From the NCBI GenBank assembly GCA_947561395.2, contig OX387186.1, positions 41,869,220 through 41,933,219 on the forward strand: a stretch of 64,000 nt of DNA. The letters are read 5' to 3'. Position 1 is the first letter of the stretch, and each line of letters opens with the position of its first letter. Position numbers and translations under genes: made by a program. This DNA comes from Buxus sempervirens (Eukaryota; Streptophyta; Magnoliopsida; Buxales; Buxaceae). Of this stretch, positions 10,323-62,190 are shown piece by piece. Below the pieces are notes generated by a model. That model was not told the origin of the DNA, did not search any database, and saw only the letters and a program-made list of their open reading frames with translations.

Positions 10323-10368
<46 letters not shown>

Positions 10369-34784: not shown

Positions 34785-34790
34785 TGTTTG

Positions 34791-34872: not shown

Positions 34873-34911
34873 TATTGCCTGTGTTAAAATTGGGATAAAA
34901 GCTTCTTTTTT

Positions 34912-35223: not shown

Positions 35224-35230
35224 TATAAAT
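35224..35230 (+). promoter_or_regulatory. TATA box of LTR-A
   Basis: TATAAAT in the conserved context GCCTATAAATAGGAGGC, 163 bp after the hairpin block. The same motif occurs in all family-1 LTRs here. Confidence 0.75.
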
Positions 35231-35340
35231 AGGAGGCTCCTCCTTAAGCAAATGGCCATTAACTCTCTTGCCAATAATTCTTGCCAAGAATAGCTCCGAG
35301 TGAAGAGGGAAACCGCTGCGGAATTGCTTCCAGAACTCAG

Positions 35341-35414
35341 GTAAGCCTCAAACTTATCTTTTATTTTCTATTTTAAATTTCTAGATCTAGATCTCTTCTT
35401 TTACTTTTCTGTAG
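35341..35414 (+). other. Putative short intron in the LTR-A transcript leader
   Basis: CAG|GTAAGCC donor, pyrimidine-rich interior and TTTTCTGTAG acceptor, 74 bp. Matching positions in the other family-1 LTRs keep both borders. Confidence 0.5.
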
Positions 35415-40405: not shown

Positions 40406-40410
40406 GGGTG
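40406..40410 (+). repeat. Target duplication GGGTG, left of element B
   Basis: Identical to 52558-52562. Confidence 0.75.
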
Positions 40411-40860
40411 TGTAGACACCCCAAATTGCACAATTTTTGATAAATCTTGAAGAAGAGAAATATCTTATTGAAATTTTCAATTCTTAGAATTGGCTTTGAG
40501 ATCCTTAACCCATTTGAATCCAAAACCACAAAGGAAAAGGCCCAAATTCAGTCTTTTATGCAAAGTCAAACTTTTCTGGTTGAATTTTGTTGACTTTTGA
40601 CCCAAAAAATGAAGTTTTTTTAAGACAATATTTCAAGATAATTTTTCCCGGTAATCAGGTTTTTAGCAATGTTATTGCATAAATGAATTTTTTGAGCCTT
40701 TAAATCTTGACAAATACCTTAGTATTAACATGTTGAATTTTTTTTACCGGACCTGAAAAACCGGAATTTAGCTTTGAACTGGAAAGTTTGCTTTTTATTC
40801 ACTTGGAATTTGGGTCTAGAACTATTTTTAATGGATTCAAATTGGGGGGGGGGGTGTTTG

Positions 40861-40942
40861 CTTATTTACATGTAATTTCTTAAGTAAATGGAGATTAAAA
40901 AATACGAGGACATTTACTTAAATGATATTACATGTAAATAAG
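40861..40942 (+). repeat. Long inverted repeat in element B LTR
   Basis: Same arms as 34791-34872, about 30 nt each, next to an 11-G run at 40844-40854. Confidence 0.8.
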
Positions 40943-41078
40943 TATTGCCTCTGCAGGTAAGGGTCAAGGCTATGCAGAAGCTGTGTAAATAGTGTTTTTT
41001 GCCCTGAACTGAAAACTCATTTCGGTCATGAAGTTTTTATGTATATCCATAATAATATGTCGGATACATATATATATT

Positions 41079-41149
41079 CTTTGTATCTGAAATATTATTT
41101 CGGATACAAAGATTTTTGCTTGTATCCGACCTAAGTTGTCGGATACAAG
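41079..41149 (+). repeat. Multi-hairpin block upstream of TATA (element B LTR)
   Basis: 41079-41111: 15-bp stem CTTTGTATCTGAAAT (one T-G pair), 3-nt loop. 41119-41149: 12-bp stem CTTGTATCCGAC, loop CTAAGTT. A weaker one precedes at about 41041-41070. Stems differ from LTR-A. Confidence 0.85.
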
Positions 41150-41346
41150 TGTTTTATTCCAAGTTGAAAAACCCTGCGAGCTTTCACTTATTTACGTCCA
41201 TACCTCTCCATCTAGGATGTCTGAATTCCCCAAATTGGCCTCCGAAATTGGTCAAATTCCTCCGATTCATGCCTTAGACTTGAGTTGCAAGATTCTAGAC
41301 ACACTTTTGTGTCTACTCTCGGGTCTTTTCTACCCTTGGTCTTGCC

Positions 41347-41353
41347 TATAAAT
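41347..41353 (+). promoter_or_regulatory. TATA box of element B 5' LTR
   Basis: TATAAAT in GCCTATAAATAGAGGGC, 198 bp after the last hairpin. Confidence 0.75.
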
Positions 41354-41461
41354 AGAGGGCGCTTCCTCTAGCAAAGGGTTGAGAATTTGAAGTTTGAAGA
41401 GCTCTTGAAAAAGAAGGGAATCTCTGCCCAATTCTCCCCTTAACTCTCTCAAGCAACCAAG

Positions 41462-41531
41462 GTGAGCTTCTAACCTCTCTCTTTTCTTTTATTTCAATTC
41501 AAGCACTCTCTACTCTTCTTCCTTTCTGTAG
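41462..41531 (+). other. Putative short intron in element B leader
   Basis: AAG|GTGAGC donor, pyrimidine-rich body, TTTCTGTAG acceptor, 70 bp. Same place as in LTR-A. Confidence 0.5.
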
Positions 41532-43363
41532 ATAAAGCCTCCTGTTGTGTTTAAAGCCCCAAACCATGCTTAAAGTACCTTAAGTACCCTCTCTAGCCGT
41601 AAAACATAAAGAGAAAGCTAGGGGAAACAAGTGTTGGAATGGATCCTCTAGATTTAGAACCAATTTTCATGATATTCTTGCATGATTCATATTGATTTGT
41701 GTGTGGTTGCTGTTTGTGCTTGTTTTGATTTCAAATCTGGAAGAATTACAAAGATCTATGCTCTTTATAGCATTAGATCTCATTTCTCTCCTTAAAATCT
41801 GATTTCCTACACAATTCCAAGCACACATCACTTGAGTTTTGTCAAAATAGGCATAGATCTTAGATCTACTATGCTCAATATAGTAGATCTGAGATCAGAG
41901 GCCTTAGAGCAACTTATTAGGACTTCATGAATTGATTTTAAGTATTTTAATCTTCTAGAGAAGACCTCATGGTCTAATCTCTCTTATGTGAGATAATTCT
42001 CACCAATTTGGGTAGATTTGGCTTTTCCTCTCCAATTAATGAGATTTCAGCCAAACGCATGCCTTAAATGTTCTGAGTGTTTTTCAACTCATTTCAAATG
42101 ATTTCAAATCAAACCATGTTTATCAAACACACACACACATTGTTTTGGCTTAGTTTTACTTAAATTTTACAAATCTGGATAGAACTTGTACCCTGTCTTG
42201 AATCATTCATAACTTCGTCATATGGATGAATTTTTGAATGATTCCAAAGACATGTGATAGGTGAGGATGTCTAGTTTATTCCTGTAAAATTTCAGCAATT
42301 TATATGGAGCCCTTTTTTCAAACCATTTGATTAAAGTTGATAAATCAGATCAGATCAGATTGTTGAACTTGTCACTTTGATTGAGCACCAAAGACTTATT
42401 TTAACTCCGATTTGAGTGATTTCAATTTTGAGTCTTTCTTTATGAGTATAATTTCAAATCCAATTGGTTTTAAGAGTTTTCATTTTAATTTGTGCTTTGT
42501 GTGCTTGATTGACCCTGTACTACTCAGTAGCAGATTACAGAGTCAATCTGTGATCCTCTAAGCATGTTTGAGAGAGCACACAAGCCACAAGTGGATGAAG
42601 TTTTGATTGAGGCCTATTCCATTCTAAAGTCGACATCTCATATTTCATTCACACCAATTTTTAAGGATTTATATGGAGCCAATCTCCATGAATAGGCTTT
42701 CAAAGTTGGCTACTCATCACTTTACTATTTTACAACAGCAGATTCAAACAATCATATCTTCTTTGATTTTTATCTAATTCAATTGAAATTTTCACTGAAA
42801 TTTTTACTTCATATAAGCTTTCAAATGACTTTGGTTTCATTTAATTTGAATTTGAATTGAATGATTTACGGTTGGTTGAGTTTTCCATGCTTACATGGAT
42901 TAATCTTGAATTGATTTTTACAGATTTGATTTAAATTGCTTTTCTTCAAGTTTTACTTTGATTTGTACTTGATCATGAAGTCCTAGAGGTGATATATCCA
43001 TAGAGAGAGTCCAGAATCTATTGGACTACTCATATGAAGGAATCACATACACATTTGTTTACTTTACATGTTACTTTTGAGTATTTTTGTTTGCAAACAA
43101 TTTTCAAGCAGGAATAGCATATGACAACCATCTTGTATGGATGATTAGAGGTGCTTAAAACCTTCCTCTACTCATAAACTAACCCCCTTACCTGATCTCT
43201 GGATTAAACCATGAATTAGAGCTACTTTTAGCTCTATTTTTACTTTTTATGCACATTTTGGTGTCCATTCACACCTTAACTTGAATGGTGGCGATTCTAA
43301 TATTTTATGAACCCTATGTGATGATTAGGAGATCACGTAGGTGATTTTTCCATATCTCACAAC

Positions 43364-43382
43364 TGGCGACTCCGCTAGGGAC
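43364..43382 (+). other. Primer-binding site (tRNA-Arg-like) of element B
   Basis: TGGCGACTCCGCTAGGGAC two bases after the LTR end. It is complementary to the 3' end of a plant tRNA-Arg (stem GCGGAGTCG plus CCA), the primer reported for Ogre elements. The one mismatch is A for G in CTAGGG. Confidence 0.75.
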
Positions 43383-43449
43383 TTGTGGGTTTACGCCATA
43401 GTTGTTTGTTTATTCATGCTTTACCATGATTTTGCTTGCTTGTTTTTTC

Positions 43450-43700
43450 GTTGATCATAATAACATGTTTAGCATGCTTGGTTCTGATTTTTTGAGGTTA
43501 TTTATTAATCATGAGCATGCTTTGCATGGGATTTATATGCCTTGGTATGCTTGTGGGTTTGAACCATGTTTCAAATGTTTTATCATGCTCTCCATGCTTA
43601 CTTGCTTTTTGTTTGATCATGATAACATGATTGGTATATTTGACAATGACTTTTTGAGATTATTTGATAATTATGAGCATGCTTATGTGCTAGATTATTT
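43450..43700 (+). repeat. Diverged tandem repeat in element B leader
   Basis: Two units about 165 bp apart share GATCAT(A/G)ATAACATG, TTTTTTGAG(G/A)TTATTT and AATTATGAGCATGCTT-like text (43456-43525 and 43615-43685). Open frames here (43402-43719) follow the repeat and are not judged coding. Confidence 0.55.
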
Positions 43701-44636
43701 TCCATGCTACTTGTATTAGCTTCTTTATATGTGATCTCCATATCATGCCTTTGAATGGGAATATGAATGTGCTTGGCTATGAAAAAGAGTGGCATGGGTT
43801 GGGTCGTTGTGTGAATGATCCTAATGTTACAAATGCACTTGTGCACCTTTTTAAACCCTTTTGCACAGCCACCTATTACTTATAGGAAGTTGAACGGGAA
43901 TGTATGTAACTTAACGCACCGAGGTCGTTACTTCGGAAAGCGAAAGTGAAAGCATTCACCCTAGATCTTAGGCTAATGATGTGCTTATATTGTGGATCTA
44001 TTGATTCTGATCATGCACTAGGCTTGAGTTTCCAAAACCCAAAACCTCAATGCTTGAAGGCGGTGTTATACACATTTTGGCCAAAATGAGCCCAAACTAC
44101 GTATGGGGAAGGGATTTGCAATTGAATGAGGCCGTTTACATGGTGTGGAAGTATGATATGAATATCATGTATGGTAGAAATAATGCAAGGTAATCTCATT
44201 TTTAATCCATGTTCCATAATTTTGGTGTACTTTCCAAGTTATGCTCAAGGTGTCAATGTTGCTTGGGAATTCCATGTTCCCTATGTTTATCTCATTTTAA
44301 GCTTGGTGTGATCCTTAGGGAGGGTCTCAAGACTCTTTTAGATGCATACCCTACCTATGAACCAAAAGAGGCAACCCAAGAGTACAAGTCCCATGCATTT
44401 GGTGTCTAATTTGGAGGGATTTAACGCCCACTTTTTGCATGAAAGGGTACTAACTCTCATTTTGTAGGTATTCAAGATTTGGAGTATAGGGGAAAGTAAG
44501 GGAGATCAAGAGCTTTATTTTTTTAGAGTAGGAATTGTTAATTTTGAATGCCCATTTTGAAGGCATTTGATGTAATATTAATGGTCCTTGAAGGCCAAGT
44601 TGTATTTTGTTTGTCCCGTTCTCTTCTATTCTCAAG

Positions 44637-44641
44637 CCCTC
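44637..44641 (+). repeat. Imperfect target duplication CCCTC/CCCTT, left of LTR-E
   Basis: CCCTC here against CCCTT at 50066-50070 (4 of 5). Confidence 0.5.
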
Positions 44642-44696
44642 TGTGCGCACGTCGTGAGAACGCGAGGGAGCACATGCGATGAAAATGTGAGGGAAA

Positions 44697-44709
44697 GGGG
44701 GGGGGGGGG
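44697..44709 (+). repeat. Poly-G tract in LTR-E
   Basis: 13 G just left of GAGTCGCCA. Not present in the other family-2 copies at this spot. Confidence 0.8.
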
Positions 44710-45119
44710 TTAGGAGTCGCCACTGCCTGATGGGGTGCAGGCAGACACTTGGGTGCCCTAAGGATGTCTACTTTGTTCTGTGGCTTGAGATTCCGGCTAA
44801 GGTCTCGATTACGGTCCGGGGAAGTCCGTAGACACCCCGGTCTGCCTCGTCGGTTGACAGGTCCCATGGGTTTCCCTGGTTCGAGTCAATTTTGGTTCAA
44901 CTCACCCTTATGTCCTAAACCAACATGCTCACTTATTAAGTCTAAATGAGACCTTCAAAGGTGTGGGTCCCTTTTATTTTAATTGATTTTATCTTTTTAT
45001 CCAGGTGATGTTAGTCTGATGTGGGCCCTGTTGGAAGGCCCATTGGATACCAAAGAGGGCTTAGGTCAAGCCCAATTCCCATTTGGGATTACGTCGGATA
45101 ACCCAGCTTATTGGATTTG

Positions 45120-45124
45120 GTTAT
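45120..45124 (+). repeat. Target duplication GTTAT, left of LTR-C
   Basis: Identical to 47573-47577. Confidence 0.8.
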
Positions 45125-47153
45125 TGTGAGACATGGGAAAATCACCTAGATGATTTCCTTTATCATCACACGGGCTCAACAAAATGCGAGAGTCGCCACT
45201 ATTCAATTTTTAGGTGTGAATGGGCACCAAAAATAATTAAAATAAGCAAAAGGACACTAGAGTAAAAATAACTCTACTTAAAAATAAAATCCAGAGATGG
45301 TTAAGGGGATTAGATTATGAATGGGGGAAGGTGTTAGGCACCCCCACTTACCCACACAGGTGGTTGCCAAGTGTTGTTTATGCTCAAAAATAAGAAAGCT
45401 TGCTAGAAAAATAAAAAACCTTTAAAAAGGATTAAACAAATGTATGATACTTCCATATGAGAAATCCAATGAATTCCAGATCCTCTTTTATGTTAGTATC
45501 ACTTCTGGGATATCACCATTAAATGGAAATCAAGGCAAAACTTGAACAAAACCGAGTTGAGACAAATCTGGAAAATTCGGTAAAAGATAGAGCCATTTGT
45601 CTTGAAATCATTCAAATCAAATTTAAATTGAATCAAACCAAATTCATTTGAAAGCTTATGATAAATAGAAGACTCATGCAAATTTTCAATTAAATCCGGT
45701 TAAAACCCTAAGAGTTATTCTCCTTTGAAATCTTCTGTTGGAAATCGGTAAAAGTAACAAGTGGGCAACTTTGGAAGTTCATTTAGAAAAATTGGCTCCA
45801 TGTAAATCCATGAATTTTTGCATAAATGAAGTCTGTAGGGCCATCTTTCAAATGAAACTAGCCCCATACCAAACTTCATCCGGAGGTGCCTTGGGTGGCC
45901 TCCCAAACAGGCCGCGAGGATCACAGATTAGCCCAGAAAGGTGTTGTTGAGCAGTTCTGAGTAAATCAGCCACTCACGATACAAATGAAATCAAAAAATT
46001 ATGAAACCAACTGAATTTGAAATTAGGCTCATAAAGGAGAACACAAAAACAAAAATCACTTGAATCGGATTTAAAACGGGCAGATAGTGCTCATTCAAAG
46101 TGATAGGTTCAGCAGTTTGACCTGAACTAACCTATCAACTTCGACTGAATGGTGTCAAACATCTACTCCATAAAAAATAACAAAATTTTACAGACATGTA
46201 CTAGACTGCCTTGTCTTTCCCATGGCCTTAAAATCACTCCAAAATTCATCCGGATGATGAAGTTATGAGTGTCTGAAGTTAGGGTACAGACGCTGTCTAG
46301 TTTTGCCATTTTTAAGTAAAATTATCCCAAAACGGTGATCAAGTGTGTGTAATCCGTGCAATATAAATCAAAATCATTTAAAAAGTGTTGAAAAACCTTC
46401 AGGGGAAATAGGGCACAAGTTTGGCTCACCATTCTCTCCGATTGGAGAGAATATGCCAAAAACCTAAAATGGAGCAAAAATGCCCAAATCCGAGAGGTTA
46501 GTCCTAGAGGTTTTCAATACTCGAGATAAACTCGTTTGAAATCAATAAGAAATATCCCAGAAATGCTTGGGGCTATTTATTTCAAATCTATCACAATGAA
46601 TGCAATAAATCCCAAATACAAGCTGATTCCGATAAAACAAGTGCAATATGTGCATGTGTACAAATTAACTCTTCAATCACATACATAACAACATATAGCA
46701 TTCATATCAATCAAATGGGGTTCTAAAAATCCTAGGGTTTCGTTCCATTCTCGTTTCCCTTAGTTCTCTCTCCTCGTTTTACGGTTCTTCGAGATAGTCT
46801 TGGGGTACTTTGAGTATGAAACGGTTTTCATAGAATCAAAAGGCCAATCAAGAGGGTTCTATAACTAAGGATCAATCCCCAGTCTCGTTTCCCCTAGATC
46901 CCTCTTCACGTTTTACGGCTAGAGGGAGTCTCGAGGTACTTTGAGTAGAGGAAGGGGTTGCATACACAAAGAGTAGGCTATTATTCTACATAAAGGTAGA
47001 AGAAAAGAGCTAACCTTAGAATGTAAGAACAGAAAAATAAAGAGGGTTTTAGGCTTACTTGGGTTTCTGGAAGCAGTGCGGCAGTGATTCCCTTCTTCAC
47101 TCGGAGCTCTTCAATCTCCAACTTATGGCCATTTGCTTGAGGAGGGGCCTCAT

Positions 47154-47160
47154 ATTTATA
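47154..47160 (-). promoter_or_regulatory. TATA box of LTR-C
   Basis: TATAAAT on the minus strand, about 165 bp downstream of the hairpin block. Confidence 0.7.
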
Positions 47161-47325
47161 AGCAAAGGCTAGGGTTAGGGTTTGCATGATGCTAGACACA
47201 AAATGATGTCTAGAGTCCCCCACACTTAACCTTAAGGCTATTTCCGAGATTTCCACTTCATAAGGATGTGTAAAACAGTAAAAATATGAAAAACTCTCCG
47301 TTTTACTCAATTTTGAGCAAAAAAG

Positions 47326-47473
47326 CTTGTATCCGACAACTTAGGTCGGTTACAAGTAAACATTTTTGTATCCGACATATGTCGTCTGATACACTAATAT
47401 CTGCTTGTATCTGATGACTTTTGTCGTATATAAAAAGATTTGCTTGTATCTGATGACTTGTGTCGGATACAAG
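47326..47473 (-). repeat. Multi-hairpin block upstream of TATA (LTR-C)
   Basis: 47326-47356: 12-bp stem CTTGTATCCGAC with one mismatch. 47443-47473: 11-bp stem CTTGTATCTGA with one T-G pair. Two weaker ones lie between. Arms differ from LTR-A and element B. Confidence 0.75.
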
Positions 47474-47572
47474 AAAGAATGCTTAAATTTGAATTTTCGT
47501 GCTGGTTACAAAGGAAAGAATGATTTTTGCCAATTATTCATCATTTTCACTGTGCAATTTGGGGTGTCTACA

Positions 47573-47577
47573 GTTAT
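47573..47577 (+). repeat. Target duplication GTTAT, right of LTR-C
   Basis: Identical to 45120-45124. Confidence 0.8.
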
Positions 47578-49449
47578 GTGGTTTGAAGGTTAATGGAATG
47601 TACAAGATTGGTGGGTTTATTGGACTTAACCACAGAACATGTGCGATTTGGCTTCAACCGCACATGCGGTGCGGTTCCGGCCAAACCGCTCTGTGTGTGC
47701 GGTTCCGGCCAAACCCAAAAAAGCAATTTTTCTTGGGGGCTTCGGCTTTCTGGGCTTTTTGTGGTATTTTAGTAGTAGTGTGGACCCCTGTGTGGGCCCA
47801 CAGTGGTTCTGGGAGAGGGGAAGACCCCCTTTTGTCTCTTTTTGGGCTTCTACCACAAGGGAAGGAGAGGGGGAGGCAAGGGAGGCTGCCTCCTCATTTC
47901 TTTTAAGCGACTCCAGCAGTGGCCTAGGGGTCTTAGCACCCCTATCTTGGACATTCTGCTTCACCAATCAATAGACCATTAAAGTCCAACAGCAAATCAC
48001 ATTATACTATACAAGTTGAACACCGAACAATGCATGCAAAGTAGTAAGACAAGAGAGGGGGTCTGCTGCTGTCCCCAGCAGCAGCTCCTACTAATCAAAC
48101 AACAGGGGATTGTGGGGTGAAGGAAGCATACTTATCAACCACAAAACAACAAATGATGTAAAGGGGCTGGGTGATCATGGCCATGGGGGTTTACACAAGC
48201 ATTCAATGGGTTTGAGTGCTAAGCATGCTAGGTAGATTTCATCATGAAAAGACCTGCTATAGATGTTGAGAACAGTAGCCCCCGGAGGAAGTGTAACATG
48301 CTAATGGGGGTCATGGGGGATGCGGTGGCATTCATACATGGCATTTGGGGTGGGGCTGCCCTGAAGGTGCAAGCAGGTGGGTAAACCTGATGGGCACAGC
48401 ACCTGAACCATAGGGGGTTTAGGCATGCTAAAATCTGCAAGCGTCAAAGGGGGAGGGGATCATGCTTATATACACAAAAACAGCAAGTTACAGCGGGAAG
48501 GGGAGCATCCATTCACACAAAAAAAGCAATCCAAGCATGCAAAACAATAAAAAATTAGTAACACATACGTGCATATGTGTGTTCATCATACTATTTTTCA
48601 AGAACATTTGGAAATCAGAAATGGGACCATGAGATAGGACAATGTAGAAACTATAAGGGGCTGCATTCCTACATCCTACCAGCAAGTGATGCCGTGCACC
48701 CTTCTTGGTACCAAGCCAACACGTGTATAAGAGAAATCAGCAAGGGCATATTTATACAAAAAGGACACAGCAATGATCTAGCATATATCACCTATGATTT
48801 CTAGCAAAATCTGAACTCAAATTCCATGTTAAACCCAAAGAAATTTAGAGAAGGGAAAGAGAAGGGGGGCTTACATGACAGTACATTGGAGTATCATGCA
48901 AGGGGAACATGCTCCCCACCAAAAATAATTAGGACAAACTCACAACAGTAACTTGAAAGACTAAAAAACGTGAGAAAAATATCTCATCTTCTTATTGAAA
49001 CCAAACGTATACATCACCTCTCCCTTGGAGCCTCTCATGTGATGTAATCGGCAAACAAAGGCATGGAAATCCCATAGGAAAAGTGATTCAAAGCAAGATA
49101 GAGACCATACTTTCCTAAACATCATGGGATGAATTCATTCTCATATATGTAATGTAAAATATAGTGGGAAACAATACGTGGTGACTTAACAAGCCTTTGG
49201 TGGTGTGTAGACACTTCCTTGAGGCAAAACAACAGTTGAAGCTCCTTCCTTCAACTTCCCAGCAAAGAAACCCAGCTTCCTTCTTACTTTGATTGGAGAA
49301 GAAGAGACCGGAGTGATGTTTAAGGGGATCAAGTTAGGTTTAAGGCTTTAGAATAGTTAAGAAGGGTAGTTCGGAGGTTCAGAAGGTTGAGGAAACAAAG
49401 AAGGAACAGTGGAAAACCATCCATCCTTTGTCCCATGTTCGAATTTGCC

Positions 49450-49456
49450 TTTTATA
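49450..49456 (-). promoter_or_regulatory. TATA box of LTR-E (family 2)
   Basis: TATAAAA on the minus strand (TTTTATA on +), 13 bp from the nearest hairpin of the upstream block. Confidence 0.65.
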
Positions 49457-49468
49457 GAACACTGGGAC

Positions 49469-49721
49469 AAAACCACATACTAAATGCGGTTTTGCCGAAA
49501 ATGAATAATAACCGCACATACCGTGCAGTTTGGTCGAAACCGCAAGATATGTGCGGTTTTGGCCCTGTCTTTTCAGCATTTAATAGGGGGACAAATTGGT
49601 CAGCGCAGTCTGGCACGCCATGCAACCGCACTGTAAGTGTGGTTACTTTTCGCACGCCGCTTGCGCTGATTGGCTCGTGCGAGCGGTGGCCGAAAAATCG
49701 ACCGCACTTCATATGCGGTCG
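49469..49721 (-). repeat. Multi-hairpin block upstream of TATA (LTR-E)
   Basis: Five hairpins built on AACCGCAC / GTGCGGTT: 49469-49493 (10 bp, one mismatch), 49510-49530 (8 bp, one mismatch), 49537-49559 (8 bp perfect, AAACCGCA), 49624-49644 (8 bp, one G-T), 49699-49721 (8 bp perfect, CGACCGCA). The motif is entirely unlike family 1, but the placement upstream of TATA is the same. Confidence 0.8.
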
Positions 49722-50065
49722 CTGGTTGAGTTGATGGCTGAGGTGACTCAGCCGCCCACTCGGACGAATTAGACTTCCCCAATTTTATTATTTCCCATTT
49801 ATCTTAATTAGTTTAATTAAGATATTTTAACTTTGACGGATTTGCCCTTGGGACTATTTTGCTCATATCTTCTTTATCCGGGCTCCGATCCCTGCAAACT
49901 TAATTGCGTTGGAACCGTGTCGGGATGCTCTACCCATTAGGATAGGGTATATCAATCAATTTGGCCTCAAGGGTAAAGTCACCTTTTGCTCTTTAGTGTT
50001 TAGACCTGTCTTTTAGGGTTTTACTTTCGGGCTTTTTAGATGGGTACAAAAATGAGGTGCTTACA

Positions 50066-50070
50066 CCCTT
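50066..50070 (+). repeat. Imperfect target duplication, right of LTR-E
   Basis: CCCTT, paired with CCCTC at 44637-44641. Confidence 0.5.
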
Positions 50071-50901
50071 AAAGGCCATTTTGTATATATTTTCTTATCA
50101 TTATTTGATGAGCTTATTGTATACTAACATGTACGTCTTCTTCTTATGTGTTCATGGTCCTCATGTTCAATTAGAATTAGTTTAGAGTCAAGCCCAATTT
50201 GGGGCATTCCCTAGGTGCAAACAAAGGTGGACAAGGAGTTTGAACAAAGATCAGATGTTCAAGAAACTTAGAAAGCAATTAAATTAAAGAAAGCCTTTTT
50301 CTAGGCAATAACTGAATACACAGATTAGTTACAAAGCTTTAATCTCATAACCGATATTTTAGTTCAGTAAAACAATTGTTTTGGAATAACCGAACATAAA
50401 ATCCGGTTACATTAAAAGTAGTCTTTAACCAATCTGATACTTTGGTTACAAGACAGGAAATTCCGAAATGCTTTTCATTTCCCATTTCTCTCAATTGGTC
50501 ATACCCAAAACTTTTTAAATGACTTGTGAGCACCTCAATGACATTAATTGAGATTAATTAAATGTTCAAGAGATGGAATAATGGATTAAACATAATTTTG
50601 GGACAAATCTCATTACCTTTGTCAAATGCCAAAGCAAAAAGCCTATAAAGAAATTAAAGTACCATCTTTCTTGGTACCAATTTTTCTCTAGCAAGTTTCA
50701 ATAAGGTTTCTAAACCTAAAATCATAAAAAAAGTTTTGGGTTGGTTTGAAATTTAAAATATTAAAATACTTTCCCAAATTTTATCCCTTAAGCTATTGTA
50801 AGACATAGTCATGGCATAATTCAATTTGTCATGGACTAATCTTATATTGGCTTATTTTGGCAAGGGATTTAATTTGACCAATTGAGAATTCCATAGGTCC
50901 A

Positions 50902-51726
50902 TTGGGAACCTTGGAATCCCAAAATTTTTTTCAAAATTCCTCTCATAGGTCTATTGGGAACCTTTGAATCCCAAAAACTTTTCAAAATAAATCTCATAGG
51001 TCCATCGCGAACCTTTGAATCCCAAAAACCTTTCAAAATCATTCATTGTCAATTGGGAACCTTTGAATCCCAAAAACTTTTTAAAAATTTTTTCTCATAG
51101 GTCCTTTGGGGAACCTTGGAATCCCAAAAGTTTTTCAAAATTCTTCTTCAGAAGTCATTTGGAAACCTTTGAATTCCAAACAAAAATTTTAAAAAAAATG
51201 CAAAAAGAAAAATCATAAAAAATCATTTTCTTTGAAATAAATTGGAGCTTCTTTTTCACCCCATAAGCTGAAAATCATTTCAAAAACTTCATAGGCCATC
51301 TGAAAGCCTTTAATTTTTAGAATCCTTCCAAATTTCACAATTCATTCCATAGGCCCCTAAAAGCCTCTAAATTTCAAATTTTAATCTCATAGGCCTTTAG
51401 GAAGCCTGAGTAATTCCTAAAACTCATAGGATTGCTGGAAGCCTGAAATTCCAGATATTTCAAATTCATAGGCTCCTGAAAGCCTGCGTAATTTCAGGGG
51501 GCATTTGGAAGCATCAATTCCAAACCTTCATAGGCCTTTAGAAGCCTGAGTAATTCTAGAAACCTTTGCTTGGGTCGTCTAAAAGCCTTTGAATTTTAGA
51601 CACAACCTTTTTGGACCGTTTGAAAGCCTTTGAATTTCAAACATCAATTCTTTTGGGCCGTCTAAAAGCCTCTGAATTTTAGACATTTCTCATTCTTTGG
51701 GACTTCTTGGAAGCCCTTAAATTCCA
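50902..51726 (+). repeat. Array of small hairpins with conserved loop and co-varying stems
   Basis: About 17 units spaced 40-80 bp, many preceded by CATAGG(T/C)C. Best stems: 50902-50922, 50954-50974 and 51053-51073 (TTGGGA/TCCCAA); 51158-51180 and 51504-51524 (TTTGGAA/TTCCAAA); 51299-51321 (TCTGAAA, one G-T); 51396-51421 (TTTAGGAA/TTCCTAAA); 51435-51454 (CTGGAA/TTCCAG); 51473-51500 (CTCCTGAAA/TTTCAGGGG); 51537-51560 (TTTAGAA, one G-T); 51577-51601 and 51660-51684 (GTCTAAAA/TTTTAGAC); 51618-51642 (GTTTGAAA/TTTCAAAC); 51708-51726 (TGGAA/TTCCA). Loops are ACCTTTGAA, GCCTTTGAA, GCCTCTGAA or GCCTGAGTAA. Units near 51005 and 51357 are degenerate. No coding content. Confidence 0.85.
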
Positions 51727-51885
51727 TATTCTTTTGGATAGTCATTTGTACCAATAACTTTTCTTCACAAGGTCAATTTCGACCAAAACAAAAAAAGAAA
51801 AAAATATTAAAATAAGAAAAAAAAATTGTAGTTCAGACTCCTGTTACCCCAAAAATGCATACATGCATTCATGAATTGTGTGAGT

Positions 51886-52557
51886 TTCAAAGTCGGCTAC
51901 TCATCGCTTTTACTATTTTACAACAGTAGATTCAAACAAGCATATCTTCTTTGATTTTTATTGGATTCAATTGAAATTTTCACTGAGTCTTCTACTTCAT
52001 ATAAGCTTTCAAATGGCTTTGGTTTCACTCAATTTGAGTTTGAATTGAATGACTTATGGTTGGTGGAGTTTTCCAAGCTTACATGGATTAATCTTGAATT
52101 GATTTTTCCAGATTTGATTTAGATTGCTTTTCTTCAAGTTTTACTTTGATTTTTACTTGATCATGAAGTTCTAGAGGTGATATATCCATAGAGAGAGAGA
52201 GAGAGTCCAGAATCTATTGGACTACTCATATGGAGGAATCACACATCTATTTGTTTACTTTAAATGTTACTTTTGAGTATTTTTGTTTACAAGCAATTTT
52301 CAAGCAGGAATAGCATATGGCAACCATCTTGTATGGATGAGTAGGGGTGCTTAACACCTTCCCCTACTCATAACCTGACCCTCTTACCTGATCTCTGGAT
52401 TAAACCGTGAAGTAGAGCTACTTTTAGCTCTATTTTTACTTTTTATCCACATTTTGGTGTCCATTCACACCTTAACTTAAATGGTGGTGATTCTAATATT
52501 TTATGACTCCCGTGTGATGATCAAGAGATAACGTAGGTGATTTTTCTATGTCTCATA
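51886..52557 (+). repeat. Element B truncated 3' LTR
   Basis: Colinear with about 42700-43361 of the 5' LTR (GGCTACTCATC, ACAACAGTAGATTCAAACAA, and the end TTTTTCTATGTCTCATA). The first roughly 2.3 kb of the LTR is missing here. Confidence 0.8.
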
Positions 52558-52562
52558 GGGTG
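52558..52562 (+). repeat. Target duplication GGGTG, right of element B
   Basis: Identical to 40406-40410. Confidence 0.75.
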
Positions 52563-53108: not shown

Positions 53109-53994
53109 TGTGCGCGTGTCGATCCACGGGCTGCATTGCTGGGCACACGAGAGTGCATGCCTCCATTTTGGGAAATTGGGAATGAGGAGTCGCCACTGCC
53201 TGATGGAGTGCAGGCAGATACCTGGGTGCCTAATGTTTGTTTATTAGTGGTCTATGGCTTAAGATTCTAGCTAAGTTCTCAGTTACGGTTTGGGGAAATC
53301 CGTAGACACCCTGGTCCACCCCGTCTGGTGACAGGTTCCGCGGGTCTTCCTGGTTTAGAGTCAACTTTGTCTATCTCACTCAATCCTACTCAGATATGCA
53401 TTCCTTATTTTAAGTCTGTGTGGGGACCACCTAAGTGGTGTGGGTCCCCTTTATCTATTTTTATCTTCTTTAATTAAAATAATCTTAGTTTGATTAGGTG
53501 GTGGACTAGGTATAGCCCACATGTCCCTTTGGTGGGCTTTAAACTAACCCTAAAAAGCCTTTTAGGGTTTGGTTTAATTTGATTGCTTTTATTTAAGGTT
53601 TAGCAAGAAATTAGGTTTAAGATTTATTTGGTGGGCCTGGATAGTCTGTGGGCCCATTGGGTGGGCCTCACAAGAGTTCCCTTTTGATTTATTTATCTTT
53701 AGTTTAATTCATCTCCAAATGGGCTAGGAATGGGCTTGGGGCCCACTTCCTAGGCTTAGGTTTGAGGCTTTGTTTGTTAAGGGATGGGAATCCCCACCTT
53801 AATTTGATAAATGGGTTGTGAGATCCCAAGTCCCACATTGCTCGAGGAGGAGAAGGTGAAGGTTTATATATGTAGGCTTGTGACTCCCTCAAGTAACGAG
53901 GCCTTTTGGGGTAAAACCCAAGAGCAAAACCGTGATGCCCAGTGGGCTAAAGCGGATAATATCATTGCAGTTAGGGAGTTGAGGAGTGACAGAA

Positions 53995-54007
53995 TGGTAT
54001 CAGAGCC
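53995..54007 (+). other. TRIM primer-binding site
   Basis: TGGTATCAGAGCC, three bases after LTR1; the classical initiator tRNA-Met complement of plant retrotransposons. Confidence 0.85.
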
Positions 54008-54107
54008 GGACCCCAACCGGAAATGTGGGACCCAGACATTGGTTGGTGCATGTGGGCAGGCCCAAGATAATGGCTGGCAGGCTACTGCACGAGGACGTGC
54101 AGCCCTT

Positions 54108-54119
54108 AAGGGGGTGGAT
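54108..54119 (+). other. TRIM polypurine tract
   Basis: AAGGGGGTGGAT immediately before LTR2. Confidence 0.75.
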
Positions 54120-55321
54120 TGTGAGATCCCAAGTCCCACATTGCTCGGGGAGGAGAAGGTGAAGGTCTATATATGTAGGCTTGTGACTCCCTTAAGCAAT
54201 GAGGCCTTTTGGGGTAAAACCCAAGAGCAAAACCGTGAGGCCCAGTGGGCTAAAGCGGATAATATCGTTGCAGTTAGGGAGTCGGGGCGTGACAACATGA
54301 CTAAGAGTAAACAGATGTTGTTGACCTAATCTCATGATAGCTTAATTACTGAGTCATGCTAAAATATTTAAAGCCACTTGTAATAAAAAGTGACCATAGC
54401 TTTGTATAGTTTTGTGATGTGAAAGATAAAATTTATCATAGTCATGGAATAACTAAATTAACATAAAAAAATATTTCAAGCTACTTGAGTCTCCATGTTG
54501 TTCCATGTGGTTATTAAACCAAGACAAAAGAGTGTCTCCGACAAAAGAAAGACCATGGTAAGACATGACCTCATGGCTTACACATGGGTAAAACCATGAT
54601 GAAAGAGATACCATGGAAAGACCATGGTGTCATGGTTTGCACATGGGTCAAAACATGATAAAACAAATAGCATGTCATCTTGTATTACCCATTCGTATGA
54701 TACATGAAATACACCCACTCGAGAAACACCCACAATGTGATTTGACACATACTTTTCATTAATCACCCAAGCACATCAGCAACACTCATCATCGTGATTC
54801 ACAACACATGCTTTTCATCAAATAGGAATAACAACAACACCATTAACGTGATTTACGGATCATGTTGACACATGCTTTCGTTAACAGTTTTTCTGAATAT
54901 TAAAGTGTACAAAAACAAGATTCAATGAATTGAAACTTGAGAGAGAACTTCAGTGAATCAACTCATATATGAAATCTGAACATTCATCTCCATGGGGTTT
55001 CATGATATCTTCTAAATAATATATTATTTAATGAGAATGATGCACAAATCATAAAAGGAAAATTAACCCACTTACCTTTGATTTCTTGGATTAAAAGCAC
55101 CAAATTTGAAGTTTCTCCTAAAATTTCTTTTTCCCCAAGAGGATGGAGACTAGGGTTCAAGATGAAAAGGAGAGAGAATGAGAAAATGGGGCAAGAGGGG
55201 GAAACAAGAGTGAAAAGGAAAAGGGGCGAGAGAGAGAGAGAGGGAGACGGTTTGAAAAGAAAATTTTTAGAAGAGATTGTATACGACTAGGGTTTTTAAT
55301 GTGTGGTGATTGGGTGTGTGT

Positions 55322-55326: not shown

Positions 55327-57037
55327 TGTGAGACATGGAAAAATCACCCGAATGATCATCCCTCCATCAACACATGGGGCTCGAAATAAAAGTTGGAGAG
55401 TCGCCACCATTCATAATTTTGAGGTGAGAATGGACACCAAAATCATCAAAAATCATCAAAAAGTGTAAAAAGGCAAATTCTAGGGTAAAAATAACCCTAC
55501 TTGAAAATCAAATCCAGAGATGGGTAAGGGGATTAGATTATGAACGGGGGAAGGTGTTAGGCACCCCCATTCATCCACACGAAGTGGTAGCCAAGTGTAT
55601 GTTCATGCAAAAATAAGAAAGCTTGCTAAAATCATAGAAAACCTTGAAAAGGACCAATGTATGATATTTTCACATGAAGATCTAAATGGATTCTAGATCC
55701 TCTCTTATGTTAATATCATTTCTGGAATATCACAAAAGATGGAAATCAAAGCACAAGTTATTCAAAAACCAAGTTGAATCAAATCCGGAAAATTCGGTGA
55801 AAAGTAATGCCATTTGTCTTGAAATCATTCAAATACAATTTTAAATTGAACCAAACTAAATTCATTTGAAAGATTACAGTAAATAAGAGTCTCATGCAAA
55901 ATTTCACTTCATTCCGATAAAAATCCTAGGAGTTATGCTCCTTTGAAGTTGCTGCTGGGGATTTTTAAAAGTGATAAGTGGGCAACTTTGGGAAATTGCA
56001 TAGAAAAATCCACTTCATAAAAATCCAAGAAATTTGGTATGATTGAAGTCTGTGTGGCCATATTTCAAAATAAACTAGCCTCATACAAAAATCCCTTCGG
56101 ATGTGCCTTGGGTGGTCTCCCGAACAGGCCCCGAAGATCACAGATTTACCCAGAAAAATGCCATTGAGCAGTTCTGAGTAAATCGGCTACCAATAATTCA
56201 AATGGAATCAAAAAATTATGAAACCAACTGGATTTGAAAATAGAATCATAAAGGAGTGACCAGAAACAAAAATCATTCGAATCGGACTTAAAACGAACAC
56301 ATGGCGCTCCGCCGAAGTGACAAGTTCTGTATTTGAACCTGAACTGTCCAATCAACTTCGACAGAGAGGTGTCAAAAATACGTTCGATAGAAATTTATGA
56401 AATTTGGTGGACATAAACTAGACAGCCTCACCTTTCCCATGGTTCTAGAATCGCTCCAAAATTCATCTGGACGATGAAGTTATGAGCGTCCGAAGTAAGG
56501 GTACAGGTGCTGTCCAGTTAGGCCCTTTTTGAGTAAAACCAACTCAAAACTGTGATAAAGTGTGTGAGATTCGTGTGAGATGAATCCAAAACCTTAAAAA
56601 ATCACTTGAAAACACTCCAGAATTGATTGAGGCCATTTATTTTAAATTTATCACAATGAATGTAATAAACCCCAAATATAAGCCTATCCCGTCAAAATGG
56701 TGCTATGTATGTGCAAATGTGAGAAACTATATAAGATCAATAGAACAACATAGCATGCATCAAAATAAGGTTCTAAAACAACCTAGGGTTCCGTTCCATT
56801 ATCGTTTCCCTCTGTTCTCACTCCTCGTTAAACACGGTTCTTCAAGATAATCAAGGGTACTTTGAATATGAAACGGTTTACAATCAATCAAAATGCCTTA
56901 TGCTATATGGATTCTAGCACTAGGGTCAATCCCCAGTCTCGTTTCTCCTAGATCCCGCCTCCACGTTTTACGGCTAGGGGGAGTCTCGAGATACTTTGAG
57001 CCGGGGAAGGATTTTCACACACAAAGAAGGCTTTACT

Positions 57038-57112
57038 CTACAGAAAGGTAGAAGAAGAGATCTAGATCTAGGAATGTAAAGACAGAAAATAAAAGAAAAG
57101 TTTGAGGCTTAC
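57038..57112 (-). other. Putative short intron in LTR-I
   Basis: Minus strand CCAG|GTAAGCC donor and TTTCTGTAG acceptor, 75 bp, colinear with 35341-35414. Confidence 0.5.
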
Positions 57113-57230
57113 CTGGATTCTGGAAGCACTCCTGCAGCGATTTCCTTCTTCTCTTGGAGTTCTTCTTTGCGAGAATTCAAAACAAGAGTTGGTTGCCATT
57201 TGCTTAAGGAGGAGCCTCCTATTTATAGGC

Positions 57231-57237
57231 AAAGGTT
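57231..57237 (-). promoter_or_regulatory. TATA box of LTR-I
   Basis: TATAAAT on the minus strand in GCCTATAAATAGGAGGC, about 157 bp from the hairpin block. Confidence 0.75.
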
Positions 57238-57393
57238 AGGGTTAGGGTTGGTGAGAATGGTAGACACAACATAATGTCTATAGCCCACCAACCTTAACCC
57301 TAAGGTCATTTCCGAGATTTCCACTCATTTAATGAGGGATATGATGGTAAAAGTGAAAAGCTCTCGGAAAACCCTAATTTTGAGCAAAACTAA

Positions 57394-57539
57394 TGTATCC
57401 GATATATCAGGCCGGATACACAAGGGCTTTAATGTATACGGCCTATGATGCCGGATACACTAAAGCTTCCTTGTATCCGGCCTTTTCCACCGGATACAAA
57501 GAGGAGTACTTGTATCCGGCCTGAGTTGCCGGATACAAG
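57394..57539 (-). repeat. Multi-hairpin block upstream of TATA (LTR-I)
   Basis: Four hairpins: 57394-57420 (8 bp TGTATCCG), about 57431-57463 (one mismatch in TGTATACGGC), 57471-57499 (10 bp perfect TTGTATCCGG), 57509-57539 (12 bp perfect CTTGTATCCGGC, loop CTGAGTT). Confidence 0.85.
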
Positions 57540-57577
57540 GAAAAAAGCCTTTTTTCCGAATTTTAACACAGGCAATA

Positions 57578-57659
57578 CTTATTTACATGTAATATCATTT
57601 AAGTAAATGTCCTCGTATTTTTTAATCTCCATTTACTTAAGATATTACATGTAAATAAG
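57578..57659 (-). repeat. Long inverted repeat in LTR-I
   Basis: Reverse-complement copy of the arms at 34791-34872, next to a run of 14 C (57666-57679). Confidence 0.8.
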
Positions 57660-58114
57660 CAAACACCCCCCCCCCCCCCATTTGAATCCATTAAAAATAG
57701 ATCCAGACCCAAATTCCAAGTGAATAAAAAGTCAACTTTTCAGTTCTAGGCAAAATTCCGATTTTTCAGGTCTGGAAAAAAGGTTCAATATGTTAAAACC
57801 AAGGTATTCGTCAAGATTTAAAATCTCAAAAAATTCTTTTATGCAATAACATGGCTAAAAACCTGATTACCGGGAAAAATTATCTTGAAATCTGCCTTTA
57901 AAAAATATTTCATTTTCTGGGGTCAAAAGTTAACAAAATTCAATCGGAAAAAGTTTGACTTTGCACAAAAGATTGAATTCGGGCCTTTTCCTGTACGGTT
58001 TTGGATTCAAATGGGTTAAGTATCTCAAACCCAATGCAAAGAATTGAAAATTCCAATAAAATATTTCTCTCCTTCGAGATTTATAAAAAATCGTGCAATT
58101 TTGGGGTGTCTACA

Positions 58115-59042: not shown

Positions 59043-60000
59043 TGTGAGACATGGGAAAAAATCAATTTCCATTGACTTCCTCAATCATCACACAGGATCA
59101 AATAAAACAAAGAGTCGCCACCATTCAATTTAGGTGTGAATGGACACCAAAATATTAAATAAGCACAAAAAGGCAATTTTAGGGTAAAAATAACCCTCCA
59201 AAAAAAAAACAACCAGAGATGGGTAAGGGGATTAAGTTATAAACAGGGGAAGGTGTTAGGCACCCCTATTCATCCACACAAGGTGGTTGCCAGGTATTGT
59301 TCATGTTTTTCAAAGAAGAAAGGCTTGCTATAAAAATCAGGAAAAATCACAAAAAAGACAAAATATATGGTTTTTTCATACGAATAGTCTGATTGATCCA
59401 AAACTTTCAAATATGATCATACCATTCCTAGAGTTCATGATAAAAATAAAATTAAGATAAAATCAAATAAAATCAATTTAAAGTGAAAAATCCAAAAATC
59501 TGGTTTCAAGTCAAATTCTAGAAATCTAGAAAATATGATTTTTATAAAATATTTCAAAATTGAACTTGAATAGTCCAGGACATATATATAGTCCAAATTT
59601 CACATTAAATCAAGAAATCAAAACCAAAAATACCCACGTTGATGAAAAACACCAAAAGGGGAGAACTTAGACCATAGGGTCTTCTCTCAATAATGAAAAA
59701 CAATTTAAAAACAACATCATGAAACCCTAGAATTTATTTTCAGGCTTCTGGATCCAGATCTATCATATTGATCATGATAAATCCAAGATCTTAGCCTAAA
59801 ATCCCAAAAATCACGAAAACAGTGCTGTAGGTGCAAAAGTGGGAAAAATCCAAATTTTAGCAAAAAGTGGGGATCTCATGCTATAAACATCATAGATTCA
59901 TGTGATTCATCTAGATTCATCATAAAAACCATTAAAACATGATCAAGATATTTAAAACAGCCACATCTCACAGATTAAAGCACATGGGGGTCTACCCTAC

Positions 60001-60240
60001 GGATCCACCTGTTCTCTTTTCCCTTAGCTCTCTCTTCACGTTTTACGGCTAGAGAGGATTCTTGAGGTACTTGGAAATAGGTTTGGGTATACAAACACAA
60101 TCAAAGGCTTTATTCTAAAAGAAAGGAGAAAAACAGATATGGGGTTCTATTCTAGGGATCCACCTGTTCTCTTTTCCCCTAGCTCTCTCTTCACGTTTTA
60201 CGGCTAGAGAGACTCTTGAGGTACTTGGAGGCAAGTTTAG
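60001..60240 (-). repeat. Tandem duplication around CGTAAAACGTGAA in LTR-J
   Basis: GGATCCACCTGTTCTCTTTT and the following CTCTCTTCACGTTTTACGG occur at 60001 and 60156. Single or diverged pairs of the same motif occur in the other family-1 LTRs (35481, 46907, 56963), so it is a conserved element of this region. Confidence 0.7.
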
Positions 60241-60268
60241 GAATACAAGTACAAAAGATGGCCTTATT

Positions 60269-60338
60269 CTACAGCAATAGAGAAGATCCTATTACATCTA
60301 GAATTGAAGACAGAAAATAAAAGGGAAAAGGGACTTAC
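60269..60338 (-). other. Putative short intron in LTR-J
   Basis: Minus strand CCAG|GTAAGTCC donor, pyrimidine-rich body, TTGCTGTAG acceptor, 70 bp. Confidence 0.5.
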
Positions 60339-60435
60339 CTGGATTGAGCAAGCAAGGCAGTAGGGGTTCCTCTCTTCTCTTGGAGCTTCTTAGACTTCAA
60401 ATTTTCGTGGCCCTTTGCTTGAGGAAAGGCCCTCT

Positions 60436-60442
60436 ATTTATA
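60436..60442 (-). promoter_or_regulatory. TATA box of LTR-J
   Basis: TATAAAT on the minus strand in GCCTATAAATAGAGGGC. Confidence 0.75.
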
Positions 60443-60642
60443 GGCAAACTCAGGGGTATGGTTGGTCCAAGGTTTGGCAAGATAGAGTTTCAGTTTGAGT
60501 TAAACACAAGATCATGCCCATCCTTTATCCACAAAGATATTTCGCACGAATAAAATATATAATTCGCTCATTTAAAGGGATATTGGACTAAAGATAAGGC
60601 TCAGAAATCGAGAGAAGAACAGAACTCGCACGAGTCTAAAGT

Positions 60643-60746
60643 GACCGTAAATGATTTACGGTCCAATGGTGCCCGTATTATCACTACGGGCGCGCCCGAC
60701 CGTAGAGACATTTCGGGCACGACCGGCCCGTGAATAAAATACGGGC
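60643..60746 (-). repeat. Multi-hairpin block upstream of TATA (LTR-J)
   Basis: Four hairpins: 60643-60663 (9 bp GACCGTAAA, 3-nt loop), 60671-60691 (7 bp GCCCGTA), 60694-60718 (6 bp GCCCGA), 60726-60746 (6 bp GCCCGT). The GTATCCG motif of its relatives is wholly replaced. Confidence 0.85.
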
Positions 60747-60849
60747 AAAGCATGCTTTGTCAGTTTTTATGCATTTTTGACCTATTTTAAGCTCTAATTA
60801 CATGTTTTTACTATTTTCTCATTCTGTAGTGCAATTTGGGGTGTCTACA

Positions 60850-61448: not shown

Positions 61449-61451
61449 GAC

Positions 61452-61690
61452 AAAAATAATGTAGCCAAAGTATCAGGTCAGCTACATTATTTTTATGTAT
61501 AGCCAAAAATAATTTTCAGCTATACATATTTTCTTTGTATCTGAAATTGTATTTCGGATACATGTTTTCTTATCAGAAATCATTACCTGCAAGGATAAGG
61601 TCAGAGAATCTTGACACGAAACCTGGGAATCTTATCTTGTATCCGAAATATAATTTTGGATATACACAAAATGTTTATATCCGAAATATA
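61452..61690 (-). repeat. Multi-hairpin block upstream of TATA (LTR-F)
   Basis: 61452-61494: 14-bp stem AAAAATAATGTAGC. 61495-61527: 9-bp stem ATGTATAGC. 61536-61562: 12-bp stem TGTATCTGAAAT with one T-G and a 3-nt loop. Near 61639-61662: TATCCGAAAT with one mismatch or wobble. A weaker one follows near 61677-61700. Confidence 0.8.
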
Positions 61691-62190
61691 TTTTTGAATA
61701 TTTTAGGAAAAATCAGATTTTTCTAGATTTGCCCCTCTCTCTCTCTCTCTCCAATTTAGCTGATTTGATGTTGGATTTTCTCATTTAATGAGATAATCCG
61801 ATTTTTGATTTCTTATTTATTTTAATTAATTAAAAGAAGATATTTTGCAAAAATAATATTATTTTATTCAAGATATTTTACTTCTCGTCCTTTTTGTCCT
61901 TTAACTTGCCACTTGGCAAATGTGACTTGCACATTTGCCACGTAGAGTAAACAGAATTTCTGCATTTTTGCCCTTAGGGTTGTTCTGCTCATATCTCCTT
62001 CATTTGGGCTCTGATTTTGGCAAACTCAATTGCATTTGAACCGTGTCAGGATTTCCTATCCACTGAGATAGGGTATGGTAGTCAATTCAAGCTTAATTAG
62101 AAAGTCAATTTTTGCTCCCTAGGGTTTGACCTGTCTTTCAGGATTTTCATTTCTAGCACTTTCGAGAGGTGCAAAAATGAGGTGCTTATA

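Follow-up and report, generated by a model that had tools for sequence, protein, structure and literature searches.

Tandem repeats are common at the 3' ends of large plant retrotransposons and give rise to new satellite DNA (PMC7004042). The relevant passages of PMC7004042 treat them as hypervariable, without reference to structure, and the terms 'hairpin', 'palindrom' and 'secondary structure' do not occur in its main text. Elements of the Tat lineage, such as Ogre and Retand, carry hypervariable tandem repeats of this kind in the 3' UTR (Macas et al. 2009, as cited in PMC7004042 and PMC6317226), and the same two sources report long LTRs, non-coding expansions and tandem repeats in plant non-chromovirus elements, including Ogre and Tat. 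Stem-loops are described in LTRs, and one around the polypurine tract (PMC3601003), and TE-derived stem-loops in a plant RNA (PMC10578108); as far as these accounts go, neither is a co-varying array. Template switching, for its part, is described as a process that creates and repairs RNA stems while the loop is retained (Monttinen and Loytynoja 2022, PMC8794818).

The locus considered here lies in Buxus sempervirens, in a stretch of 64,000 nucleotides that was analysed as a whole and is called the window below. It holds a real and statistically strong array of co-varying hairpins within a plant LTR retrotransposon.

Layout of the array

A preliminary description of this DNA, made from its letters, had claimed about 17 consecutive stem-loop units. 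Seventeen are found, each made of an 8-nt left arm, a near-constant loop of 7-10 nt and an 8-nt right arm. The loop starts with [A/G]CC[T/C], the exception being GCAT in unit 12. Unit starts are 29-57 nt apart, apart from one step of 141 nt between units 6 and 7, and tandem repeats reported by TRF within 50500-52200 have a period of 52 at 50892-51180 and of 42 at 51570-51686. The features of the array, all on the forward strand, are as follows.

50900-51729, +, hairpin array of 17 units (tandem scan, arm pairing, covariance model)
50900-51181, +, block 1, units 1-6, loop ACCTTTGAA/ACCTTGGAA (arm pairing; TRF period 52)
50900-50924, +, unit 1, arm-loop-arm core
50952-50976, +, unit 2, arm-loop-arm core
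51003-51027, +, unit 3, arm-loop-arm core, broken
51051-51075, +, unit 4, arm-loop-arm core
51105-51129, +, unit 5, arm-loop-arm core, one mismatch
51157-51181, +, unit 6, arm-loop-arm core
51182-51297, +, A/T-rich stretch separating blocks 1 and 2, no unit by covariance model
51298-51729, +, block 2, units 7-17, loop GCCT... (GCAT in unit 12, GCCC in unit 17) (arm pairing; TRF period 42)
51298-51322, +, unit 7, arm-loop-arm core, one G-U
51355-51379, +, unit 8, arm-loop-arm core, broken
51396-51421, +, unit 9, arm-loop-arm core
51433-51456, +, unit 10, arm-loop-arm core
51474-51499, +, unit 11, arm-loop-arm core
51503-51525, +, unit 12, arm-loop-arm core
51536-51561, +, unit 13, arm-loop-arm core, one G-U
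51577-51601, +, unit 14, arm-loop-arm core
51618-51642, +, unit 15, arm-loop-arm core
51660-51684, +, unit 16, arm-loop-arm core
51705-51729, +, unit 17, arm-loop-arm core

Units were placed by the loop-start motif, which occurs at 20 sites; those at 51026, 51522 and 51560 directly follow a unit's right arm and were omitted. The loop length of each unit (7-10 nt) was chosen by eye for best fit, a choice that the swap test described below redoes for every pairing. A covariance model of the 17 units recovers all of them, with E values from 2.5e-08 up to 0.018 (unit 12). Scanned over the 64-kb window, it gives no further unit and no second copy of the array, the next match lying on the opposite strand at 35853-35878 (E 0.11).

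Pairing and covariation of the arms

Perfect stems with loops of 7-10 nt reach at least 5 bp in 13 of the 17 units, at least 6 bp in 11 and at least 7 bp in 7. Composition-preserving shuffles of each unit, which the preliminary description had named as a possible refutation should they form as many stems, yield stems of at least 6 bp in a mean of 0.18 and a maximum of 2 of 17 units over 2000 rounds, and chance stems are thereby ruled out. The further claim that the arms match each time holds for most units; the exceptions are units 3 and 8, whose stems are broken, unit 5, with one mismatch, and units 7 and 13, each with one G-U pair. Over the inner six positions (n = 102), 94 cells are Watson-Crick, 2 are G-U, 3 are A-C and 3 are other combinations; over all eight (n = 136), the numbers are 110, 3, 10 and 13.

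The two arms change together, as had been proposed. When arms are swapped between units, a mean of 83.9 of 136 cells pair (sd 5.0, maximum 103), compared with the 110 found with a unit's own arm, a value reached in none of 20,000 swaps. With one representative of each distinct stem (13 units), 82 pairs with own arms stand against 63.6 after swapping (0/20,000), and with units 7-17 only, 73 against 58.2, two of 20,000 swaps being as good. Both-sided changes are seen in seven of the eight paired columns. The covariation score of 0.463 is reached by none of 500 shuffles and falls to 0.281 or 0.218 when the partner is slid by one column; further pair types are no more numerous than in shuffles, of which 395 of 500 reach the observed count. 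Under a tree-based null that keeps the tree and the number of changes per column, a self-made procedure rather than R-scape and limited by a tree derived from the same 33 columns, the observed covariation appears in none of 2000 simulations. The plain count of paired cells is reached in 18 of these 2000, and the argument therefore rests on covariation and not on pairing alone. RNAalifold gives a consensus stem of 6 bp with both-sided changes in five of its six pairs. Pair parsimony, applied to pairs 1-7, puts the both-sided changes at about 6 for the same-column tree and at about 13 for a tree of non-stem columns; the corresponding figures are 13 and 15 for one-sided losses of pairing, 2 and 2 for changes to G-U, and 6.5 and 12 for restorations.

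Differences between individual units follow the same pattern in part. In the close triplet of units 14-16, the loop differs at no more than one position, and both stem pairs that differ are compensated, with no uncompensated difference. Units 9 and 13 have the same loop and left flank, and each arm of unit 13 appears one base shorter at facing places (by eye); a third difference between them affects one side only and is uncompensated. Among all unit pairs, compensated differences number 224 and other differences 207 (17 units, first seven positions); without the broken units 3, 5, 8 and 17, the numbers are 144 and 24 (first six positions). Mean pairwise identity over the 17 units is 0.82 and 0.74 for the two loop ends, 0.63 and 0.67 for the arms, and 0.49 and 0.43 for the flanks, the flank values being depressed by insertions and deletions. 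For units 7-17 alone, the 3' loop end (0.68) is no better conserved than the arms (0.70 and 0.69). Selection for unlike neighbouring stems, by which cross-pairing would be avoided, was considered and rejected: adjacent units are no more different than others, with a mean of 5.05 against 5.06 after permutation in units 7-17, and of 5.25 against 4.69 over all 17, where adjacent units are more alike.

The host element

The array belongs to an LTR retrotransposon on the forward strand, delimited by the features below.

40406-40410, +, left target-site duplication GGGTG
40411-52557, +, LTR retrotransposon carrying the array (LTR pair and target-site duplication)
40411-43361, +, 5' LTR 'B', 2.95 kb, TGTAGACACCCC...ATCTCACA (self-comparison)
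43364-43381, +, primer-binding-site-like TGGCGACTCCGCTAGGGA, 2 nt past the 5' LTR, TGG-initial
51790-51826, +, A-rich tract resembling a polypurine tract (PPT-like)
51827 on, +, TGTAG...ACCCCAAAAATGCA, tentative remnant of the 3' LTR start
51885-52557, +, 3' LTR remnant 'G', 92% identity to the last ~664 bp of 5' LTR B
52558-52562, +, right target-site duplication GGGTG

Remnant G is 92% identical to LTR B and 77-79% identical to the five other LTRs in the window. This match, together with GGGTG on both sides, is the reason why B and G are taken as the ends of one forward-strand element, whose 3' LTR has lost its first part, about 2.3 kb. The array ends about 155 nt before the recognisable remnant, in the non-coding 3' part of the element. 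The tentative LTR start at 51827, behind the A-rich tract, would put the array in the 3' UTR; the match is weak, since 14 of 3000 background windows and 5 of 172 in the adjoining region score as high. A reading of the array as part of a transcribed LTR leader, suggested by a TATA-like sequence near 50644 (by eye), was dropped given GGGTG and the LTR pair, which fix 51885-52557 as a 3' LTR remnant; it keeps some likelihood, as that LTR lacks its initial 2.3 kb.

The interior is interrupted by LTR sequence on the opposite strand, namely a solo LTR at 45125-47572 and a leftward LTR-like start at 50067. A Pfam search of 10 reading frames (four at 43.4-44.9 kb and two at 47.6-49.8 kb within the element) gave no domain above the cut-off and two sub-threshold matches, no reading frame of at least 85 amino acids occurs in 50068-51826, and no tRNA gene was found in the window. 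The element is a dead plant LTR retrotransposon without recognisable coding sequence left. The earlier placement of the array at the 3' end of an LTR element is thus borne out by the GGGTG duplication and the matching LTR pair, and its label 'Ogre-type' is not established, no domain having appeared above the cut-off in the 10 frames. Tandem repeats in a non-coding 3' region, a Tat/Ogre trait, are present here as a shared feature that is not sufficient for membership.

By self-comparison, the LTR family in the window starts with the same letters as LTR B and ends with TCTCACA. Four solo LTRs of one family lie within about 27 kb, at 34335-37139, 45125-47572, 55327-58114 and 59043-60849, with intact 5-bp target duplications that read, in this order, ATACT, ATAAC, CCTGC and GTTAC in the flanks. 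U3-like LTR parts contain clusters of inverted repeats at 34912-35070, 41051-41149 and 50340-50450, and on the reverse strand at 47320-47480, 49480-49780, 57394-57550, 60640-60760 and 61450-61700. Their stems (TTGTATCCG, AACCGCA, GCCCGTA/GACCGTA, TAACCG and TGTAGC) are subfamily-specific by eye, similar within an LTR and different on both arms between subfamilies, and these clusters are possibly the same phenomenon as the array in another place. TATA-like boxes inside LTRs, at 41347, 47160 (-) and 61448 (-), are followed within about 100-270 nt by splice-donor-like AAG-GT(A/G)AGC or AA-GTAAGC, a by-eye hint of long transcribed R-U5 leaders with an intron.

Other sequences in the window include open reading frames at 7958-13565 that resemble a LINE (endonuclease-RT), with a poly-G run of 38 at 10325-10362, and frames at 15385-18776 (-) that resemble a hAT-type transposase, both named by eye. 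A direct repeat of 180 bp, 94% identical and containing GAGATCCCAAGTCCCACATTG, lies in one open frame at 53811-54329 and has one sub-threshold Pfam match. A tandem repeat of period 62, present in 3.3 copies, occupies 38788-38993 and has an inverted repeat inside it at 38845.

Decay since insertion

Between LTR B and remnant G, 54 of 664 sites are different (38 transitions and 16 transversions; K = 0.087), that is, about 4.3% of sites changed per copy. If the inner six pairs of each stem had been perfect at insertion, this divergence would predict 8.7 broken pairs of 102, on the assumption of equal neutral rates in LTR and array; eight are observed, five of them transitions, a share consistent with 38 of 54 in the LTRs. 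The stem length of six was picked with the data in view and the fit depends on it: with five pairs, 5 are broken against 7.2 expected, with seven 15 of 119 against 10.1, and with eight 26 of 136 against 11.6. We read the deviation at outer positions 7-8 as a sign that these were never part of every stem.

The agreement of 8 with 8.7 indicates that the inner six pairs were nearly complete when the element inserted and that only decay followed, in keeping with the preliminary expectation that ordinary decay would break pairing. On the six-pair reading, the compensated changes predate insertion, and no stem has been repaired since. This argues against a process that equalises arms in the chromosome and leaves either selection in the active lineage or the element's own replication.

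RNA folding and G-U pairs

Compared with 20 shuffles each, the sense strand of the array is more stable at z = -3.9 (0/20 as stable) and the antisense strand at z = -2.1 (1/20). In RNA partition functions, a unit's own stem has a mean probability of at least 0.5 in 6 of 17 units in full context and in 3 of 17 at a span of up to 60. Arms of different units cross-pair in minimum-energy folds; at a span of 35, the minimum-energy fold contains 10 of the 17 own stems, as read. Rfam gives no match above the gathering score in the whole window. A known RNA family for the array was rejected, the sole candidate being a match to snoR64 below the threshold (E 1.5), at 51075-51156 on the opposite strand.

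The same LTR family contains a second co-varying stem, a single hairpin with the loop TGC(C/T)TAA(C/A)ACCTT that sits about 200-235 nt before the LTR end, in all seven LTR copies examined.

52337-52371, +, single LTR hairpin in remnant G, co-varying stem
36892-36926 and 43141-43175, +, other copies of this hairpin
45317-45351, 55540-55574, 59239-59273 and 63109-63143, -, other copies of this hairpin

In these copies, 97.4% of the cells are paired, the covariation score is reached by 1 of 500 shuffles and the count of both-sided pairs by 74 of 500. The LTR hairpin carries G-U pairs in 7 of 77 cells, in the manner of RNA structures; the share in the array, 2 of 102, is lower (Fisher p = 0.04). 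Within the array, G-U pairs show no excess over A-C (2 and 3, with 3 other mismatches among 102 cells), and all of these may be post-insertion decay. A comparison of G-U with A-C was accordingly abandoned as a discriminator there, the mismatches being too few and the inner ones fitting such decay. A wider tally over nine LTR segments, delimited here and read on what is presumed to be their sense strand, covers 70 hairpins with 13 G-U, 5 A-C and 17 other mismatches; it is suggestive only, because related copies are counted separately.

Proposed mechanism and rival explanations

The preferred reading, to which we give a probability of about 0.48, is that selection maintained a multivalent array of RNA stem-loops while the element was active; arm-templated copying is a serious rival or helper. 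During replication of the lineage, selection on the forward-strand RNA would have preserved a stem-loop in every unit. It would have constrained the pairing and the loop sequence ([A/G]CCTTTGAA and variants) and left the identity of the stem bases free. One loop presented in many copies on interchangeable stems would suggest a platform for multivalent binding. Its binder would most likely, and as a guess, be a protein of the element's own particle, Gag, acting in packaging, by analogy with dispersed packaging signals, which have a shared loop motif and variable stems. We infer that RNA rather than DNA was the selected form and that binding was its role.

Several results count for a selected structure: covariation beyond arm swaps, column shuffles and the tree-based null; loop ends that are more alike than arms and flanks over the 17 units; the compensated differences of units 14-16, together with broken pairs close to neutral decay; and the stability of the sense-strand fold, together with the co-varying LTR hairpin of the same family. 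Other results weigh against it. Classical stepwise RNA evolution would leave more G-U pairs than the array has, and the facing one-base losses of units 9 and 13 are poorly explained by two-step selection. The decay fit is tied to six inner pairs, which is a weakness of the selected-structure reading, the 3' loop end of units 7-17 speaks against a loop constraint, and the few own stems in full-context folding, with arms pairing between units, count against a selected structure as well.

The two options offered in the preliminary description, a selected structure or stems rewritten by template switching, are still the live ones. In rewriting, the strand would fold back or switch during reverse transcription (or DNA replication) and copy the opposite arm, so that a mutation in one arm passes to the other and pairing is maintained without any hairpin function; we consider this somewhat unlikely. 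The inner stems are nearly pure Watson-Crick, with G-U no commoner than A-C, as such copying would leave them, and the lower G-U share of the array is the main, if thin, evidence for it over two-step selection. The paired one-base difference between units 9 and 13 and the two compensated pairs of units 14 and 15 resemble footprints of the kind set out in PMC8794818, and Macas et al. 2009, as reported in PMC7004042, tie the origin of 3' UTR repeats to abnormal strand transfers. By itself, however, rewriting leaves unexplained why loops are more conserved than arms and flanks over the 17 units; inverted loops are seen in none of the 17 units (by eye), and one difference between units 9 and 13 is uncompensated. 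As the chromosomal copy bears no sign of repair, such copying could have acted only in the element's replication. In another explanation, stems would have driven amplification, by stalling reverse transcriptase and causing strand jumps that duplicate only units with intact stems, the array then being a by-product that filters for pairing. The tandem layout in the 3' non-coding part, where repeats of the Tat lineage are proposed to stem from strand transfers (PMC7004042), and the near-complete inner stems at insertion suit this explanation, which is nevertheless improbable, since it picks intact stems and cannot make new compensated ones, does not require loop conservation and sits poorly with the uneven spacing of 29-57 nt. 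A combined view is unlikely yet worth stating: reverse transcription would make the hairpins self-amplifying and self-correcting, with stems stalling the enzyme, strand jumps growing the array and fold-back copying rewriting the arms, so that a multivalent, loop-recognised array is made and kept in the active lineage. If it is true, part of what is called 'hypervariable 3' UTR repeats' in plant elements would be not junk but structured RNA.

A role in DNA, as palindromic sites for a dimeric DNA-binding protein or as cruciforms, recalls the perfect inverted-repeat clusters in U3-like parts of the same LTR family, such as TTGTATCCG...CGGATACAA at 34912-35070, 41119-41149 and 57400-57540 and AACCGCA...TGCGGTT at 49494-49730. 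A sequence-specific protein would, however, fix the arms and free the centre, and in the array the centre is more constant than the arms; the array also lies outside the U3-like parts as placed here, and the DNA reading is very unlikely. There is a similarly slim chance that the units form tandem H-type pseudoknots, in which an upstream AGG[T/C] pairs with the loop [A/G]CCT while the arms pair. Four such pairs can form in 9 of 17 units (AGGT-ACCT in 1, 2, 3 and 5; AGGC-GCCT in 7, 8, 9, 11 and 13), and the covariation score is reached by 12 of 500 shuffles. On the other side, the switch from T to C divides the two blocks and so may have happened only once, the share of paired cells (72.1%) is not above that of shuffles (70.1%; 121/500), the helix slid by one column scores higher (0.285 against 0.210), and 4 of 17 units allow only two pairs.

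Should arrays of this kind prove to be co-varying hairpins, they would form a cis-acting RNA module. They would also offer a natural experiment on a long-standing question, whether stem pairing evolves through selection in two steps or through template switching in a single one. The answer can come from a plant genome that contains several copies, because dated insertions separate change in the active lineage from change in the chromosome.

Comparison with known systems

The statement that no equivalent is described proved too broad, since Tat/Ogre repeats (PMC7004042) and template-switched stems (PMC8794818) are both on record in the parts of these papers that bear on them. Their combination is another matter: co-varying hairpin arrays in Tat 3' UTRs, or an equivalent, did not appear among the matches listed from one open-access library, most subscription papers lying outside this scope. 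A literature query with the letters TGGCGACTC returned nothing on retrotransposons among the matches listed, and exact-pattern scans of viral contigs gave no match.

Several described systems share single aspects with the array. The stems of PMC8794818, as presented there, are alike in that both arms change together, with multiple changes per stem and the loop kept; they belong to RNA genes, chiefly rRNA, whereas the array is a tandem repeat of a mobile element and has shown no sign of repair after it inserted. In RNA viruses, multiple packaging signals dispersed over the genome (PMC6281560, in the features given there) likewise comprise many stem-loops with a common recognition motif in variable surrounding sequence; the array differs in being tandem and in a retrotransposon, and binding of a coat or Gag protein to it is hypothetical. 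The packaging and dimerisation structures of Ty1 (PMC5454406) are, like the array, structured cis-acting RNA of an LTR retrotransposon; they are located at the RNA's 5' end and the array in the 3' part, and a tandem array is not mentioned in the relevant part of that account. The 3' UTR repeats of the Tat lineage are, like the array, tandem and non-coding and stand before the 3' LTR of a large plant element with a 5-bp duplication and long LTRs. The array departs from them in its short hairpins, near-constant loop and co-varying arms. Tandem repeats in this 3' position are already known, and what appears new here is an array whose units are co-varying hairpins.
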